From positions 496,001 to 560,000 of the forward strand of contig NZ_VFOX01000002.1 in NCBI RefSeq assembly GCF_006716345.1: a stretch of 64,000 nucleotides of DNA, in the 5' to 3' direction. The translations under genes and the position numbers were made by a program. Position 1 is the first letter of the stretch. Each line of letters begins with the position of its first letter. This stretch comes from Microbacterium saperdae (lineage in GTDB: Bacteria; Actinomycetota; Actinomycetes; Actinomycetales; Microbacteriaceae). Positions 46,883 to 52,399 of this stretch are shown piece after piece. Below the pieces are notes generated by a model that made no database searches, was not told the DNA's origin, and saw only the letters and a program-made list of their open reading frames with translations.

Positions 46883-46996
46883 TCCGCGTTGACTGCGCCT
46901 CCCTTGCGCCTCGACCTTCCGAGGCCCTCCGCATGACACCTTCCGAAGAACAGGAGCGCTTCCCCTCCCCGGTGATACACCGAATGGAGAAAAAGT

Positions 46997-49420
46997 TCAG
47001 AATCCGCTTCCGTGGCACTGGAACGGCGCGCGATGGCCGGTCGAGACGGATGCCGCGGCCAGCGCTGCGGCAGGGGTCGCCCCGGCCGCGAGCTCCCCGT
47101 GCACGGCACCCAGCAGCTCGCACGCCACGTCATCCGGCACGACGACCGGAGCCGCGATCACGCACCGCGTCCCCGCGTGCAGCCATACCCGCGTCATGCC
47201 GAGCGCCTCCTCGCCCCAGCGCACCGAGGAGCGGCCGAGTTCGCACGCGGAGAGGATCACGGTGTCGGGCACGGTCGGGATCAGATCGACGTCGTAGCCG
47301 AACAGGGTGCCGTCGGCGAGCTCGAAGCCCGAGAACAGCGGGTTGTCGACGGCATGGCGACCGTGGGCGGCGATGTGCAGCAGATCGGTCGAGCCGGCGA
47401 GTGTCGTGACGGCCGAGACGGTCGCCTCCGCGCCGTGCAACTGCACGGGAGATGCGCCCCACGCCGCGGCGGCCTGCTGGATCTCCTCACCGGCGCGCGG
47501 CACGCGAGGACCCGCGGCGAACCCGATACGGTCCCCCGTCTCGTGCGGGCCCCGACGATCGCCGCTCCACCGCGAGACCGAGGTCGCGAGGGTGAACGGG
47601 GTGCCGTGCATGCCGGGCAGCATCGCCCAGGGCACCCCGGCGAGGATGCCGGGCGATGTCACCACCAGTTGCCGCGCCGATCCGCGCACGGGCGCCAGGA
47701 GCTCGGCGTCGAGCAGGGCCAGGCGCGCGTCGAGCGACCGGGCGATCACCTCCGCCATCGGCCCACCACGTGTGAGGGCGGCCACGTCGAGATCGGCGCG
47801 GAGCCCGTCGAGCGCGGACTGCACGAGTGACAGGGACAGGTCGACGATGCGCGCCGTGGATGCCGTCACCACGACGCAGTGCAGCGCCGTCCCGGTGAAG
47901 ACGTACGCGAGCACCGCGGTGTCGGCATCGAGCAGGGCTGTGGTCGCCGCGAGGTTGATGCGTTCACGCGTGCCCCCGGAGCGGGTCGAGGACCATTGCC
48001 GCTCCCGCACCCGATCGCGCAGCACGCGCACGCGGGCATCGGTGGTCCAGTCCTGACCGGCGAGGTCGGCGCGCAGCATCCGCAGTTCTGCGAGATCCGT
48101 GGCGAGGGCGTCATCGTGCGGAGGGCGCAACGGCGCGACCTGCTGGCTGAGGTGCCGTGCCCGCTCGGACCAGGCGAACAGCGTCTCCGGATCACGGGTG
48201 CGCGCGGCGGCGGTCAGCCCGGCGAAGACGAGCTCGCTCCCCTGCATCGCGACCGATGCCTGCAGGTCGAGCGCGCCGAACGACTGCTGCCATCCCGCGA
48301 GCAGGTCGAGGCCCTCGGCCGCCGCGCGCAGGGCGTCACGGGGGCGTCCGGCCGAGGCGGCCCTCGCCGCCCGCACCTCGTGCACACGCAGCCGTAGCGG
48401 CGCGGGAGCATCGTCCGCCACAGTCGGCAGCCGTCCCCCGCCCTCGCGCCGCGCGCTGAGGCGCAGTGCGGTCGCCTCGGTGCGCAGACCGCTGCGGTCG
48501 AGGGCGGATGCCGTGCGTCGCACTTCATCGTCGTCGGGGCGGGTACGCGTACCGGCGCTCAGCCCGGCTTCCAGTCGCACGGCGTCGGCGCGCGCCTCCC
48601 ACCCGGCACTGCCGAGTGCGGCGAACCGGCGGGCCGCAGTACGTGCCGTGCGTTCGGCGGCCGTCGCATCGTGGCGCAGCAGGGAACGGGCGAGATGGAG
48701 CTCGGCCTCGCCCCGCGCCTGCCGCATCCGCTGCGCCCCGAACTGCACAGCCACGCGGCCGAGCAGCGCTTCGGCCTCCGTCGTGAGGCCGGCGTCGCGC
48801 AGCACCTCGGCGCGATCCAGGTCGCTGATCGCGGCGGCCAGGTCGCTGGTCGCCGCGAGAGTCGGCCGCGAACGGGTCATCAGTGCGAGAGCCGTGACCA
48901 GGTCGCCCCCGAGCAGCGCCGCGTAGCCGAGGTTGTGTCGCGCTTCGGCGAGAGGCTCCTCGTCGCCGTTGGCCTCGTACACGGCGACCGCACGCTGCAG
49001 GTCGGAGATGCAGGCTTCGAGCTGATGCTGCTGCATCCGCAGCATCGACCTGTTCATGAGGCAGTTCGCGAGTTCGGTGGTCTCCGTGCGCATCGCGTCG
49101 ATGGAACGCGTGAGCATCGTCTCGGCCTCGTCGAGCCGTCCGGAGTGCATCAGCAGCGTGCCGAGCTGTCCGCTCAGCACCGCGACCGTCTCGTCGCGCA
49201 GTCCTTCGCGGTCGAGGGCGTCGCGGCACAGGCGTTCCGCCTCCGCCGGCTCCCCGGTCTGGGCGAGCACATAGGCCCGGGTGCCGTCGATGCGGGCGCG
49301 CAGGTCGGGATCGTCCGTGCGGGCGGATGCCGTCGTCAGCGCACGCCGGGCCGCCGCGAACCGTCGGGAGTTGGCCGCTTCGACCCCGCGCCGGTGCAGC
49401 TCTTGTGCGGACAGGGGCAT
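46997..49420 (-). CDS. TPR-CHAT (caspase-like) protease
   Basis: 807 residues. The N-terminal ~400 residues are helical TPR-type repeats (e.g. LSGQLGTLLMHSGRLDEAET; EARHNLGYAALLGGDLVTAL). The C-terminal ~300 residues are a CHAT domain: the catalytic dyad is His686 in LLHIAAHGRH and Cys726 in VILSACELG, both intact. CHAT proteins are caspase-related cysteine proteases; several are effectors in bacterial immune or stress responses. No signal peptide or membrane helix, so cytoplasmic. ATG at 49420 has only a weak site; the frame is open further upstream. It follows an S8 protease gene by 86 bases in one apparent operon with a sigma factor. Target unknown. Confidence 0.85.
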   Translation of the reverse strand: MPLSAQELHRRGVEAANSRRFAAARRALTTASARTDDPDLRARIDGTRAYVLAQTGEPAEAERLCRDALDREGLRDETVAVLSGQLGTLLMHSGRLDEAETMLTRSIDAMRTETTELANCLMNRSMLRMQQHQLEACISDLQRAVAVYEANGDEEPLAEARHNLGYAALLGGDLVTALALMTRSRPTLAATSDLAAAISDLDRAEVLRDAGLTTEAEALLGRVAVQFGAQRMRQARGEAELHLARSLLRHDATAAERTARTAARRFAALGSAGWEARADAVRLEAGLSAGTRTRPDDDEVRRTASALDRSGLRTEATALRLSARREGGGRLPTVADDAPAPLRLRVHEVRAARAASAGRPRDALRAAAEGLDLLAGWQQSFGALDLQASVAMQGSELVFAGLTAAARTRDPETLFAWSERARHLSQQVAPLRPPHDDALATDLAELRMLRADLAGQDWTTDARVRVLRDRVRERQWSSTRSGGTRERINLAATTALLDADTAVLAYVFTGTALHCVVVTASTARIVDLSLSLVQSALDGLRADLDVAALTRGGPMAEVIARSLDARLALLDAELLAPVRGSARQLVVTSPGILAGVPWAMLPGMHGTPFTLATSVSRWSGDRRGPHETGDRIGFAAGPRVPRAGEEIQQAAAAWGASPVQLHGAEATVSAVTTLAGSTDLLHIAAHGRHAVDNPLFSGFELADGTLFGYDVDLIPTVPDTVILSACELGRSSVRWGEEALGMTRVWLHAGTRCVIAAPVVVPDDVACELLGAVHGELAAGATPAAALAAASVSTGHRAPFQCHGSGF

Positions 49421-49506
49421 CCACTCAGAATGCCGTGCCCCGGCCCCGGGCGGAAGAGCCGGAGGCCTTGTCCAGGGGCAGCGTCCTGGTTTGTTCGCCC
49501 GGCGGC

Positions 49507-51054
49507 TCAGTCCACGGACGGCGAAGGCAGCGTCGCCAGGGCGGCCTTGACGGCGGATGCCGCGTCCACCCGCCCGACGCCGATGACGCCGAGGTGCCCG
49601 GCGATGAGGCCGGCGACGTAGGGGGCGGCGAACGAGGTGCCGCTCCACACGGCGAAGCCGCCGCGGTAGTCGTCCGGGTCGATCGTCTCACGGTGCAGCC
49701 CGTCGACATCGGCCCTGGTCGTCGCCTGGGCACCGCCGACGAAGGCCGGTGAGGTGCTCACGACGGCCGCACCCGGCGCGTACACCCGCACCCAGGGGCC
49801 GACGTTCGAGAACAGGGCGACCGATCGCGCCGACGGATTCAGCGCGCCCACCGACACGTGCGGGGCGCCGTGATCCGGCCCGATGCCGTTGTCGGCGCCG
49901 GGCCAGGGCCAGAGCGATGCCGGGAACGAGGGACGGTCGATCGCGTCGTTGCCCGCCGAGCACACGACCACGCATCCGAGCTCGCGCGCCTTCGCGAGCA
50001 GGGCGTACAGGGTGCGGCTGAACTGACCGTCGACCGGGGTCTCGTGGTAATACCCGAGCGACAGGTTGAGCACGTCGATCGGATGGCCGGTCTTCGGGTC
50101 CTCCCGGTAGCGCCGCAACAGCTCGATGACCTGCGCCAGGCTCTCGAGCAGGGCGCTCTCGTCCACGACGCCGAGCGCCCCCGCCACCCGCACCGACACG
50201 ATGTCGGCATCCGGTGCGGCCTGTCGGATGATGCCGGCGATGAAGGTGCCGTGTCCGGCGACCGCATCGATCTCTCCGTCCAGCTGCCCGTAGAGGTCGG
50301 GGTAGCGCTCGGGGTCGGCGTCATCCGTGAGTCCGATCGGGACGCCGTCGAGTTCCAGGTGCCGGGTCACGATGTCATCCGGCAGCCAGTCATGCACCCC
50401 GCAGCCCGTGTCGAGCACCGCGACCACGGGCCGACGGCCGCGCTTCGGCGCAGGTCCGCGGCGTGGTGCGGGTCCGAGCCAGGTCACCGGCTGTCGCGCC
50501 CCTCTGCCCGGTTCGAGGTAGTCGTCGCTGCCGCCCGCGCCTCGTCCTTCCACGGGGTTGGTGCGGCTGAACGGGTTCGTCCGACTGAACGGGTTGGTGC
50601 GGCTGAACGGATTGAGCCCGACGGGGTCGATCGACAGCACGTGCTCCAGGCCGGTGCGCGGCATCACCGAGCGCGACATGCGGCGTGCCCGCTGCAGCAC
50701 CCGCCACGCGTCCGGCGCGACGGGGGACTCCCCGCGCCCCGGCTCATCCGGCGTGGTCAGGTGCGCGCGCAGGAATCCGGGCACACCGGGAACGAGCTCC
50801 CGGGAGACGCCGTCGCCCTGTTCGATCTCGAGCAGCCATCCGAAGCTGTCCGCAGCGTCGCGCAGCGTGCGGATCTCGCGGTCATACGCCTCGTTGTCCT
50901 CCACATCCTGGGTGATGAGCAGCCGTTCGGGGAGATACGCGGTGGGGAAGGCGCGGATGCCGTCCACGGGTTCCAGGCTCGGATCGAGCGCGGTGCCCCG
51001 CCGGATCGATCCTTCCGCGCGGTCCTGCCAGGTCCACCCTCGGGGCTGCTCCAT
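49507..51054 (-). CDS. S8 (subtilisin-like) serine protease, predicted cytoplasmic
   Basis: 515 residues. N-terminal domain of ~145 residues (no signal peptide), then a linker with three exact NPFSRT repeats (residues 148-165), then the peptidase: Asp215 in VAVLDTGCG, His268 in AGHGTFIAG, oxyanion Asn369 in SAGND and Ser474 in SGTSFAAPYVAG. All catalytic residues are kept. Secreted subtilisins have a signal and propeptide, so this one should act inside the cell. FSRT recurs at 345-348. It lies between a small unknown gene (51-base gap) and the CHAT protease, suggesting a two-protease pathway. ATG with GGAGAGGA. Confidence 0.88.
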   Translation of the reverse strand: MEQPRGWTWQDRAEGSIRRGTALDPSLEPVDGIRAFPTAYLPERLLITQDVEDNEAYDREIRTLRDAADSFGWLLEIEQGDGVSRELVPGVPGFLRAHLTTPDEPGRGESPVAPDAWRVLQRARRMSRSVMPRTGLEHVLSIDPVGLNPFSRTNPFSRTNPFSRTNPVEGRGAGGSDDYLEPGRGARQPVTWLGPAPRRGPAPKRGRRPVVAVLDTGCGVHDWLPDDIVTRHLELDGVPIGLTDDADPERYPDLYGQLDGEIDAVAGHGTFIAGIIRQAAPDADIVSVRVAGALGVVDESALLESLAQVIELLRRYREDPKTGHPIDVLNLSLGYYHETPVDGQFSRTLYALLAKARELGCVVVCSAGNDAIDRPSFPASLWPWPGADNGIGPDHGAPHVSVGALNPSARSVALFSNVGPWVRVYAPGAAVVSTSPAFVGGAQATTRADVDGLHRETIDPDDYRGGFAVWSGTSFAAPYVAGLIAGHLGVIGVGRVDAASAVKAALATLPSPSVD

Positions 51055-51105
51055 CGGTCATCCTCTCCGTGCGGGTGGTCCCGCGCCCGTGCGCCCGAAG
51101 GCGGT

Positions 51106-51564
51106 CTACAACTCGAACTGCGGCGTCGACAGCGTGCGGGGCTCCCCGTCCACGCCGGTCGTCGTCAGATGCACCCGCGTGAGTCCGGGTGGTACTTCGT
51201 CGAACGAGAATCGTCCGGTCTCGGCCGGCTCCGTCGCACGCGACTTCTCACCCTGCACGAGCGTGATCTCGGCAGTGGCGGTGTCGACCCATCCGTCGAC
51301 ACGTCGGCGTCGGGATGCCGTCGTCGTCACGTGCAGCAGGATGCTGGTGACCCCGTCGCTGAACTGCAGGGTCAGCGCATCGGCATCTCCCCGCACCGAT
51401 CCCAGCTCGCTCTCCACCAGCGTCAGCAGGGCGTATTCATGGCTCAGCCCGTCGGAGGCGACCGCGGCGATCATGCGGTCGATCAACGTCGCCGGAACCG
51501 GGTCGACCTCCCGCCACAGAGCGCGCAGCTGCGCGAACACCTCGGCATCTTCCTGATCGCTCAT
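51106..51564 (-). CDS. Unknown small protein between sigma factor and S8 protease
   Basis: 152 residues, soluble. The first half has a helical LWREVDPVPATLIDRMIAAV segment; the second half (about 90-152) looks like a beta sandwich (AEITLVQG, GRFSFDEVPPGLTRVHLTTT) of the carboxypeptidase-regulatory type. No catalytic motif. The ATG overlaps the sigma stop by four bases (ATGA). Position right after an ECF sigma gene is where anti-sigma factors are found, but it has no transmembrane helix or zinc motif, so this role is only a guess. It may instead be a substrate or adaptor of the proteases. Confidence 0.65.
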   Translation of the reverse strand: MSDQEDAEVFAQLRALWREVDPVPATLIDRMIAAVASDGLSHEYALLTLVESELGSVRGDADALTLQFSDGVTSILLHVTTTASRRRRVDGWVDTATAEITLVQGEKSRATEPAETGRFSFDEVPPGLTRVHLTTTGVDGEPRTLSTPQFEL

Positions 51565-52196
51565 GCGAACCCTCCTGCGCTCGGTGCGGTCGGCGCGTCC
51601 AGCACGGCGCGGAGCTTGGCGAGGCAGCGCTGGCGGGTCGGACCGATGCTCCCGATCGGCATGGCCAGATCAGCCGCGAGGCGGGTGTAGTCGGGGCGGT
51701 CCTCGAACGCGATCACGCGCAGCAGTCGCTGGCAGCGTTCGGCCAGGCGCTTCACGGCCGCCCAGAGTCGCCGCTTCTCGTCGCTGAGCGTCGCGTGCTC
51801 CTCCGCCGACTGCTGCTCGGGGAGGAGGATGTCGAGGTCATCGGCATCGGTGGTGTCCACGCGACCCTGCGCCTTGCCCACACGCCAGGCTTCGCGGCGG
51901 GCTGTCGTGGTCAGCCAGGCGGAGACCGCCCGAGCATCGGCGATCGAATCCTGGCCGCGGACCAGCTGCAACCAGGTGGTCTGCACGACGTCTTCCGCGA
52001 GCGTCCGCTCGAGCCCGTAGGCGCGCACGACGTGCCAGAGCACGGGCGTCATCAGACGCACCAGCTCGTCCATCGCGCGACCGTCGCCCTCGCGCCATGC
52101 GTCGAAGAGATCCGCCGCCCGCTGCCACCGCGAAGGCCCGTTTTCCGATGCAGGATCGAGAGCGGCGCCGGGTGCACCGTCGATCATGAAGCCCAT
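51561..52196 (-). CDS. ECF-type RNA polymerase sigma factor
   Basis: 211 residues. Region 2 (DLFDAWREGDGRAMDELVRL, then GLERTLAEDVVQTTWLQLVR) binds core polymerase and the -10. Region 4 (RLLRVIAFEDRPDYTRLAAD, then AMPIGSIGPTRQRCLAKLR) is the HTH for the -35. There is no region 3. The chosen ATG (52196) has AGGTG upstream; 52187 is an alternative ATG, and a much longer open frame has no conserved sequence. First gene of the sigma-unknown-S8-CHAT operon and probably its activator. Confidence 0.85.
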   Translation of the reverse strand: MGFMIDGAPGAALDPASENGPSRWQRAADLFDAWREGDGRAMDELVRLMTPVLWHVVRAYGLERTLAEDVVQTTWLQLVRGQDSIADARAVSAWLTTTARREAWRVGKAQGRVDTTDADDLDILLPEQQSAEEHATLSDEKRRLWAAVKRLAERCQRLLRVIAFEDRPDYTRLAADLAMPIGSIGPTRQRCLAKLRAVLDAPTAPSAGGFA

Positions 52197-52399
52197 TGTG
52201 ATCACACCTACCAGGAGCACGGCAAGGGTTTCCTGATACATCGGGCGTCGCAGCATCCGTTTCGGCATCGTTCCGCAGGGACTGCCACGCGGTGTGCAGG
52301 AGAACCTGCCGAACGCAGGACCTCTTCGCGGTGATTCCTCCGGAAAGGGGAGCATCCTCCTGCAGAACGTGAGGATGACCGAGCCGATAGCGTGGAGAG

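Follow-up and report, generated by a model that had tools for sequence, protein, structure and literature searches.

A tandem peptide array in an S8 protease zymogen co-varies with the TPR region of the neighbouring CHAT protease in an ECF54-type module

Two proteases and a sigma factor in one operon

The window analysed here is a stretch of 64,000 nucleotides from Microbacterium saperdae (contig NZ_VFOX01000002.1, positions 496,001 to 560,000 of the forward strand), in which four genes on the minus strand encode an ECF sigma factor, a small protein, a protease of the S8 (subtilisin) family and a protease that joins tetratricopeptide repeats (TPR) to a caspase-like CHAT domain. This operon content had been claimed in the original prediction and is confirmed. 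The S8 zymogen carries a tandem array of identical short peptides, and the residues of this array co-vary across relatives with residues in the TPR region of the CHAT protease. We consider it fairly probable that the two proteases of this ECF54-type module form a switch linked to the sigma factor, in which the TPR domain of CHAT docks on the linker array of the S8 zymogen.

51561..52187, minus strand: ECF sigma factor, 208 residues (NCBIfam sigma70-ECF, 1.2e-15; Pfam Sigma70_r2, 2.9e-8)
51106..51564, minus strand: small protein, 152 residues, candidate sigma regulator
49507..51054, minus strand: S8 protease zymogen, 515 residues (Pfam Peptidase_S8, 7.4e-25; triad D215/H268/S474)
46997..49420, minus strand: TPR-CHAT protease, 807 residues, start at 49420 (Pfam CHAT, 1.7e-25; TPR_12, 8.9e-9; TPR_2, 2.3e-7)

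The start codon of the small protein overlaps the stop codon of the sigma gene (ATGA). For the sigma factor, 52187 is the probable start, chosen because the DNA immediately upstream is conserved in relatives; a longer open reading frame (ORF) to 52355 is possible. The catalytic residues named earlier, Asp215/His268/Ser474 in S8 and His686/Cys726 in CHAT (numbered from the start at 49420), proved right. The S8 triad is invariant in alignments of 17 and of 39 proteins and is kept at 171/171 loci of the comparative set defined below, where the CHAT His is kept at 165 (5 gaps, 1 Arg) and the Cys at 167 (4 gaps). The source genome has one S8 of this family and two CHAT genes, the second of which (G000:C2:247650-248369) has no S8 of this family alongside.

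An array of identical peptides at the propeptide junction of S8

50632..50949, minus strand: subtilisin-type (I9-like) propeptide domain of S8, residues about 36-141 (AlphaFold2 and structural alignment)
50560..50613, minus strand: array NPFSRT x3, then NP, S8 residues 148-165, with a putative docking role

In the AlphaFold2 model of S8, the predicted propeptide (residues 39-141) has the element order strand-helix-strand-strand-helix-strand, an I9-type fold placed before the catalytic domain, and residues 144-193, which include the array, have a predicted local distance difference test score (pLDDT) below 50. Structural alignments on pro-PCSK9, CylA and unprocessed pro-subtilisin E start at S8 residue 32-44 and span 293-308 residues, against 212-235 aligned residues for catalytic domains alone, and rows of mature subtilisins that begin at their residue 1 correspond to model residue 188-193. 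The structural alignment gives the first and last aligned residues only, and 7 of the 50 rows shown reach into the propeptide. Together, the alignment starts and the low-confidence stretch place the array as an insertion at the junction between propeptide and mature protease. No export signal was seen on S8 by eye.

The original prediction is silent on this array, which appears to be new. A script found it at this position in 93 of the 105 S8 proteins that could be parsed (8 more were not parsed). Relatives have units such as NPFTRT, NPYGST, NPFHDG, NPLHDS, HPFDVS, NPVENS, NPFTG, NPAYQG and others. Across the whole genome, a degenerate DNA pattern for hexamers like NPF[S/T]RT matches three times, each time inside the array, and no copy of the unit was found by script in other ORFs of at least 70 residues at the same locus (93 loci); a motif shared with other proteins was rejected on these grounds.

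The larger comparison started from 233 loci, of which 202 had a proline-anchored unit, a CHAT of more than 500 residues and an S8 score above 480; removal of 31 near-duplicates left 171. Outside this set are arrays of the GYGDGV or GYLQGV type (L150, L160, L299), loci with few imperfect repeats or none (L148, L155, L156, L162-L172, L198, L199, L293), loci where CHAT gave no hit (L034, L109, L293) and the low-scoring L161, which breaks the pairing rule described below (Phe with Val). The 171 loci hold 83 distinct units in 2-9 copies, with six-residue units at 148 and perfect arrays at 144. Between copies, amino acids mismatch in 162 of 8915 comparisons (1.8%). Synonymous codon differences number 3083, compared with 3511 expected from each gene's own codon use (88% of saturation), only 2 of the 171 arrays have DNA-identical copies, and 12 of 63 invariant Ser columns mix the AGY and TCN codon families. 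Slippage alone as the source of the repeats was rejected on these codon data. The copies are alike as protein and have diverged silently, which argues that selection holds them identical: they are old as DNA, and the unit changes in concert between lineages, as would be expected if all copies had to fit one and the same partner.

The residue after the proline co-varies with CHAT position 199

48824..48826, minus strand: CHAT Ser199, co-varying with the array residue after the proline (P+1; Phe in the window); z 9.2, best of 1086 columns
48836..48838, minus strand: CHAT Ala195, possible second pocket position for P+1 (contrasts r -0.43, rank 2/1133; held-out rank 3/1092)

Alignment columns were scanned for changes that fall on the same tree branches as changes of the unit. 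The discovery set comprised 87 loci, of which 84 were used for co-change (all four proteins, 1274 columns) and 79 remain in the 171; the other 92 of the 171 served as the held-out set. The scan of the 171 loci covered the CHAT and S8 columns only (1086 columns). Most loci, also among the held-out 92, come from two genera, Microbacterium and one whose named members are Nocardioides.

CHAT 199 was the top column for P+1 in the discovery set (z 6.6; next 4.1) and again among the 171 loci, where it co-changed with P+1 in 27 of 35 cases when 7.1 were expected (z 9.2; next best column 3.4). None of 20000 simulated columns reached 27 co-changes, the maximum being 15. In 85 independent pairs of loci, residue 199 differs in 20 of the 22 pairs with a different P+1 and in 8 of the 63 with the same P+1. 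Phylogenetic contrasts of side-chain volume between P+1 and CHAT 199 gave r -0.52, the most negative of 1133 columns. Among the S8 columns the maximum is only z 3.4 for P+1 and z 3.2 for P+2. A reading of the array by the active site of S8 itself was rejected, no S8 column being prominent for these two residues, though some are for the residue before the proline.

The residue states read like a size-based lock and key (Tyr-Gly, Phe-Ser/Cys, Leu-Val). Tyr goes with Gly at 32 loci and with Ser at 1, and Leu with Val at 9/9; Phe goes with Cys (48), Ser (40) or Ala (7), so that 95 of 101 fit these three, the rest being Asn (3), Gly (2) and Val (1). Ile is found once with Met and once with Thr, and Met once with Ala. 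Outside the class, where the alignments are less sure, P+1 Gly and Ala stand with Ile and Leu at 199; for Phe, residue 199 is Pro, Ser or Ala, and for Met it is Gly. The pairing rule taken from the discovery set fits 75 of the held-out 92 loci (Tyr-Gly 13/14, Phe-Cys/Ser/Ala 45/49, Leu-Val 5/5, Val-Ile 3/5, His-Asn 9/17, Ile-Met 0/1; Met was without a rule), and the volume contrast between P+1 and 199 in this set is r -0.42, rank 2/1092.

Further array positions and the geometry of the TPR region

49064..49066, minus strand: CHAT Asn119, charge partner of array P+3 (Arg in the window); contrasts r -0.55, rank 1/831, and state table
48944..48946, minus strand: CHAT Glu159, charge partner of array P+3 (contrasts r -0.34, rank 3/831)
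49043..49045, minus strand: CHAT Met126, co-changing with array P+2 (z 5.9, best column for P+2)
49169..49171, minus strand: CHAT Gly84, co-changing with the residue before the proline (z 6.0, best column; pairs 7/13 vs 2/72)

For P+3, the charge contrast with CHAT 119 was strongest in the held-out set (r -0.68, rank 1/750). At CHAT 159, Lys is found with Asp in the unit at 9/9 loci and Lys or Arg with Glu in the unit at 6/6, and of the 62 units with Arg, 38 face Glu and 20 Gln. A linker column of S8 just after the array (162 in the array-free alignment) opposes the charge of the unit (r -0.44), perhaps as part of the same contact. For the last residue of the unit there is a hint of co-change with CHAT near the catalytic Cys (W735, z 4.8), for which the state table is not clear.

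Read by eye, the first helices of four TPRs in a row hold CHAT 84, 119/122/126, 159 and 195/199. Residues beside these positions are near-invariant: Q85 (170/171), N123 (155/171), H162 (168/171), N163 (169/171), Y166 (169/171) and D202 (170/171). Such a pattern in the TPR region of CHAT would suit a groove whose contacts are fixed and whose side-chain pockets vary.

The four families are kept as a set

We sampled 113 loci reached via S8 and sought the other three families by script on the same strand within 6 kb. All four were found at 103, which is more than chance would give. At the other ten, CHAT lies on the opposite strand (L167-L170), contig ends cut the locus (L057, L106, L109), or hits were missing for CHAT (L034) or for sigma and the small protein (L105, L161). 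The order sigma-small protein-S8-CHAT, judged by ORF midpoints, is kept at 86 of the 103; some of the 17 that differ are midpoint artefacts of long open frames, and in more distant actinobacteria S8 is genuinely first and CHAT sometimes divergent. That the set is kept through reordering is better evidence for a functional set than conserved order alone.

Among 295 genomes of the genus, S8 is present in 162 and any CHAT in 171, both in 160 and neither in 122; 2 genomes have S8 only and 11 CHAT only, six of these at E above 1e-14. The two proteases are thus present or absent together in 282/295. In a class sample, S8 matched at E 1e-30 in 44 of 394 genomes, and in a phylum sample in 10 of 296, six of them outside the class; five of these six have all four families and repeat arrays, and the sixth (L305) has S8 and CHAT hits only and no array. 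The expectation that similar loci exist in other actinobacteria was borne out, as one conserved module that occurs in Actinomycetes, in further classes of the phylum and not in close relatives alone.

Several single loci deserve mention. In L163, L165, L172, L164 and L166 the array is absent and a single motif stands at the same place (QPMWWSG and APFYGG, for example), possibly an ancestral single-copy dock. CHAT is missing or in pieces beside an intact S8 array in L034, L046, L058, L090, L246 and L271, where sequencing errors are possible. L077 and L203 belong to one genome with two S8 genes, whose arrays are of the NPFGKT and NPFTRT types, beside a single CHAT. L302 has two adjacent S8-CHAT pairs with different codes, GPFTSG x7 with Ala199 and HPMYDG x4 with Gly199.

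The small protein and the DNA upstream of sigma

The only domain match of the small protein, CarboxypepD_reg, is sub-threshold (E 0.0079; 17 bits against a cut-off of 32.3). It has a conserved DPVP-type motif, and its model shows N-terminal helices at 3-20 and 27-42 and a C-terminal beta-sandwich at 63-146, a fold that in the fold comparison is common to many unrelated proteins. Pfam and NCBIfam gave no anti-sigma match, and the fold comparison barely covers the two N-terminal helices. Four matches to solved structures by sequence (E 0.38-0.94) were judged to be chance. By analogy with Csx30, the small protein is a candidate sigma inhibitor. The small protein (tail at 51106-51126, minus strand) and most of 109 relatives end in TPxFE[LVI] or a similar hydrophobic sequence, forming a conserved free C-terminus.

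52188..52241, minus strand: conserved block directly upstream of sigma, ATGTATCA...CTTGCC..GCTCCT...TGTGATCACAATG (upstream-DNA alignment, 25 loci)

This strongly conserved block holds the palindrome TGTGATCACA and a promoter-like pair, TTGCC...CACAAT, with CACAAT seven bases before the ATG. The alignment suggests that it is likely the promoter/operator of the operon, and such an operator-controlled promoter would possibly be leaderless. TGTATCA is found twice on the minus strand, at about 46965-46980, right after the CHAT stop, and at 52234-52240 in the block before sigma, which may be chance.

A docking switch and its alternatives

In the switch that we propose, S8 would be a pro-subtilisin without a visible export signal, made of a propeptide, a flexible linker and a catalytic domain, and the linker would serve as a multivalent set of identical docking peptides. 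The groove of the CHAT TPR domain would bind one array unit, with P+1 in a pocket formed by CHAT 195/199, P+2 read by 126 and P+3 paired by charge with 119/159. Docking would place the caspase-like CHAT domain where propeptide and catalytic domain meet, and there one protease would most likely process the other; the favoured direction is that CHAT cuts the linker and frees active S8. Since the linker joins propeptide to protease, docking or cutting there would be a natural on-switch for S8. Proteolysis would then strike the sigma factor or its translationally coupled small partner and so change transcription, and by analogy the output is probably the sigma factor, reached through that partner. 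Six-residue units side by side probably leave too little room for several large CHAT molecules, so repetition of the unit may allow rebinding, provide redundancy once a cut has been made, or promote clustering.

A number of observations weigh against this proposal. The array finder allowed adjacent units to differ at one residue at most, which favours perfect arrays and under-counts degenerate ones, and in the distant relatives with large genomes (L163-L172) the four genes are kept and the array is absent. For P+1, His is found with Asn (11), Cys (7) and Ser (1), Val with Ile at only 4 of 6 loci (Gly 1, Val 1), and L046, one of the 48 Phe-Cys loci, has its CHAT in a doubtful frame and was kept in the 171; CHAT 186 is the runner-up among CHAT columns when pairs are compared (20/22 against 15/63), and CHAT 56 outranks 199 for volume in the held-out set. 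For P+2, a volume rule with CHAT 126 was sought by contrasts and not found, the most negative P+2 volume contrast being with an S8 column. The charge contrasts of P+3 are weak in the discovery set (119: r -0.28, rank 15; 159: r -0.13, rank 79) and strong only in the held-out set (119), so that the charge rule draws mainly on the loci added later; second rank for P+3 charge goes to a linker column of S8. For the residue before the proline, four S8 columns with z 4.6-4.9 stand beside CHAT 84. Control of the sigma factor is drawn from gene order and analogy.

The same co-variation would apply to a peptide signal, in which S8 processes its own array and the freed units (NPFSRT) bind the TPR domain and switch CHAT on inside the cell. 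Signalling by Phr/PapR-type peptides through TPR proteins is a precedent for this, identical tandem units that change quickly between lineages resemble pheromone precursors, and the array sits, by structural alignment, where subtilisins process themselves. We nevertheless think a peptide signal unlikely: the units abut with no processing spacers, no export signal is apparent by eye, and the modest S8 maxima for P+1 and P+2 (z 3.4 and 3.2) indicate that S8 does not visibly read those residues. The docking data would also fit sequestration, in which the array holds CHAT (or S8) in an inactive complex until a stress takes it apart; multivalency would set the threshold, and neither protease would need to process the other. 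The genome of L077 and L203 speaks for it, since two different S8 stand by one CHAT and both units have Phe at P+1 and a basic P+3. It leaves the location of the array at the propeptide-catalytic junction unexplained, however, and we regard it too as an outside chance. The stretch is disordered and its copy number varies, as would suit a neutral linker whose repeats are partnerless slippage products and whose association with CHAT is mere operon linkage; yet the protein copies match where only 2/171 arrays are DNA-identical, so that the codon data already contradict it, and the single-column co-variation lies far outside its distribution, making a neutral linker highly improbable.

The original prediction joined its suggestion of a link between the two proteases to that of a conflict system. 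The link is strongly supported by the co-variation; the conflict system finds no direct support, and we judge it improbable that the module serves immunity or cell death against phage with a fast-changing docking code that stays ahead of phage inhibitors. In favour of such a role, CHAT proteases act in immunity (Craspase, PMC10028731, as far as its passages covered here go), S8 weakly resembles IetS (E 5.7e-10) and the module is patchy within the genus (S8 in 162/295). Against it, Pfam assigns no defence family to the ten flanking ORFs, four of which have a family, all ordinary (DeoR, APH, TetR, GyrI-like), and PADLOC gives only weak subtilase matches to S8 and one match at E 0.008 to sigma. 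Relatives in viral, phage and plasmid collections are few and weak: 2 at 28% identity in viral contigs, one record of 11.85 Mb in a plasmid set that is probably a chromosome, and a 7.5 kb 'Bacteriophage sp.' record without annotation, 42.7% identical over 60% of S8. A mobile or phage origin was rejected on this basis, and nothing tying the module to phage defence was found in this analysis.

If the docking switch holds, nature would offer in it a clear example of identical docking motifs in tandem that co-evolve with one pocket, useful for the design of orthogonal protease switches. TPR-CHAT proteases are caspase relatives for which, in the literature covered, a worked-out trigger and substrate was found only for RNA-guided Craspase; here evolution supplies a readable recognition code and a partner protein, which makes the function of ECF54 modules testable by peptides and point mutants. 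More tentatively, as a possibility that we would not yet call probable, one may think of a bacterial 'peptide code', in which tandem lineage-specific peptides in a partner zymogen recruit and cluster a caspase-like protease in an apoptosome-like switch by induced proximity. Peptide and TPR groove would match by a code of size and charge that drifts fast and could keep neighbouring modules from cross-activating; L302 has two adjacent systems whose codes differ.

Comparison with known systems

The ECF54 sigma group has carboxypeptidase, subtilase and CHAT neighbours, and proteolytic control has been proposed for it in the part of a 2022 review covered here (PMC8999054). The association is thus in print, the gene combination is not new, and its description as under-described was not borne out. 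The present locus has this neighbourhood of ECF sigma, CHAT, subtilase and carboxypeptidase-type genes, the carboxypeptidase-type match of the small protein being below the Pfam cut-off. In the same passages, the ECF54 account concerns degradation of sigma and makes no mention of a docking array, a propeptide or a link between CHAT and subtilase, whereas the present locus has an array and a propeptide. No subtilisin-CHAT docking array appears in the passages covered of PMC8999054, PMC8195603, PMC8103513, PMC10028731 and PMC10907252, and no paper on one turned up in a literature search that covered few subscription papers, which is no proof of absence.

In Craspase, according to the passages covered of PMC10028731, the TPR-CHAT protease Csx29 cuts Csx30, a protein inhibitor of an ECF-like sigma factor (CASP-sigma). 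A TPR-CHAT protease near an ECF-like sigma factor is common to both systems; unlike Craspase, the present locus has a second protease with an array and lacks the RNA-guided arm. No Cas7-11 or other Cas family was found by Pfam in the four genes or in the ten ORFs within about 5 kb, the part of the genome that was searched. The part of PMC8195603 covered describes further caspase-type systems that have ECF sigma factors. Compared with solved structures by sequence, CHAT gave nothing at E 0.01. The NCBIfam IetS model matches the S8 core only, at 28.1 bits against a cut-off of 900, and the four genes and ten flanking ORFs contain no ATPase family, whereas IetAS defence pairs the IetS peptidase with the ATPase IetA; with the T7SS_mycosin model (type VII secretion), S8 scores 69.5 bits against a cut-off of 278.75.

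Like the pro-subtilisins (pro-subtilisin E 3whi, PCSK9, CylA 9ekq), S8 is predicted to have an I9-type propeptide, and it differs in showing no export signal by eye. The S8 family is further set apart from them by a disordered peptide array of 2-9 copies inserted at the maturation junction. RRNPP systems consist of a separate gene for an exported pro-peptide and a TPR regulator with a helix-turn-helix (HTH) or phosphatase output. The likeness to them lies in a short peptide that, as proposed here, would be read by a TPR groove. Unlike RRNPP, the unit pattern is found genome-wide only within the S8 gene, so that the ligand would be an array held within a protease, and the TPR protein that would read it carries a CHAT domain in place of the HTH or phosphatase output.

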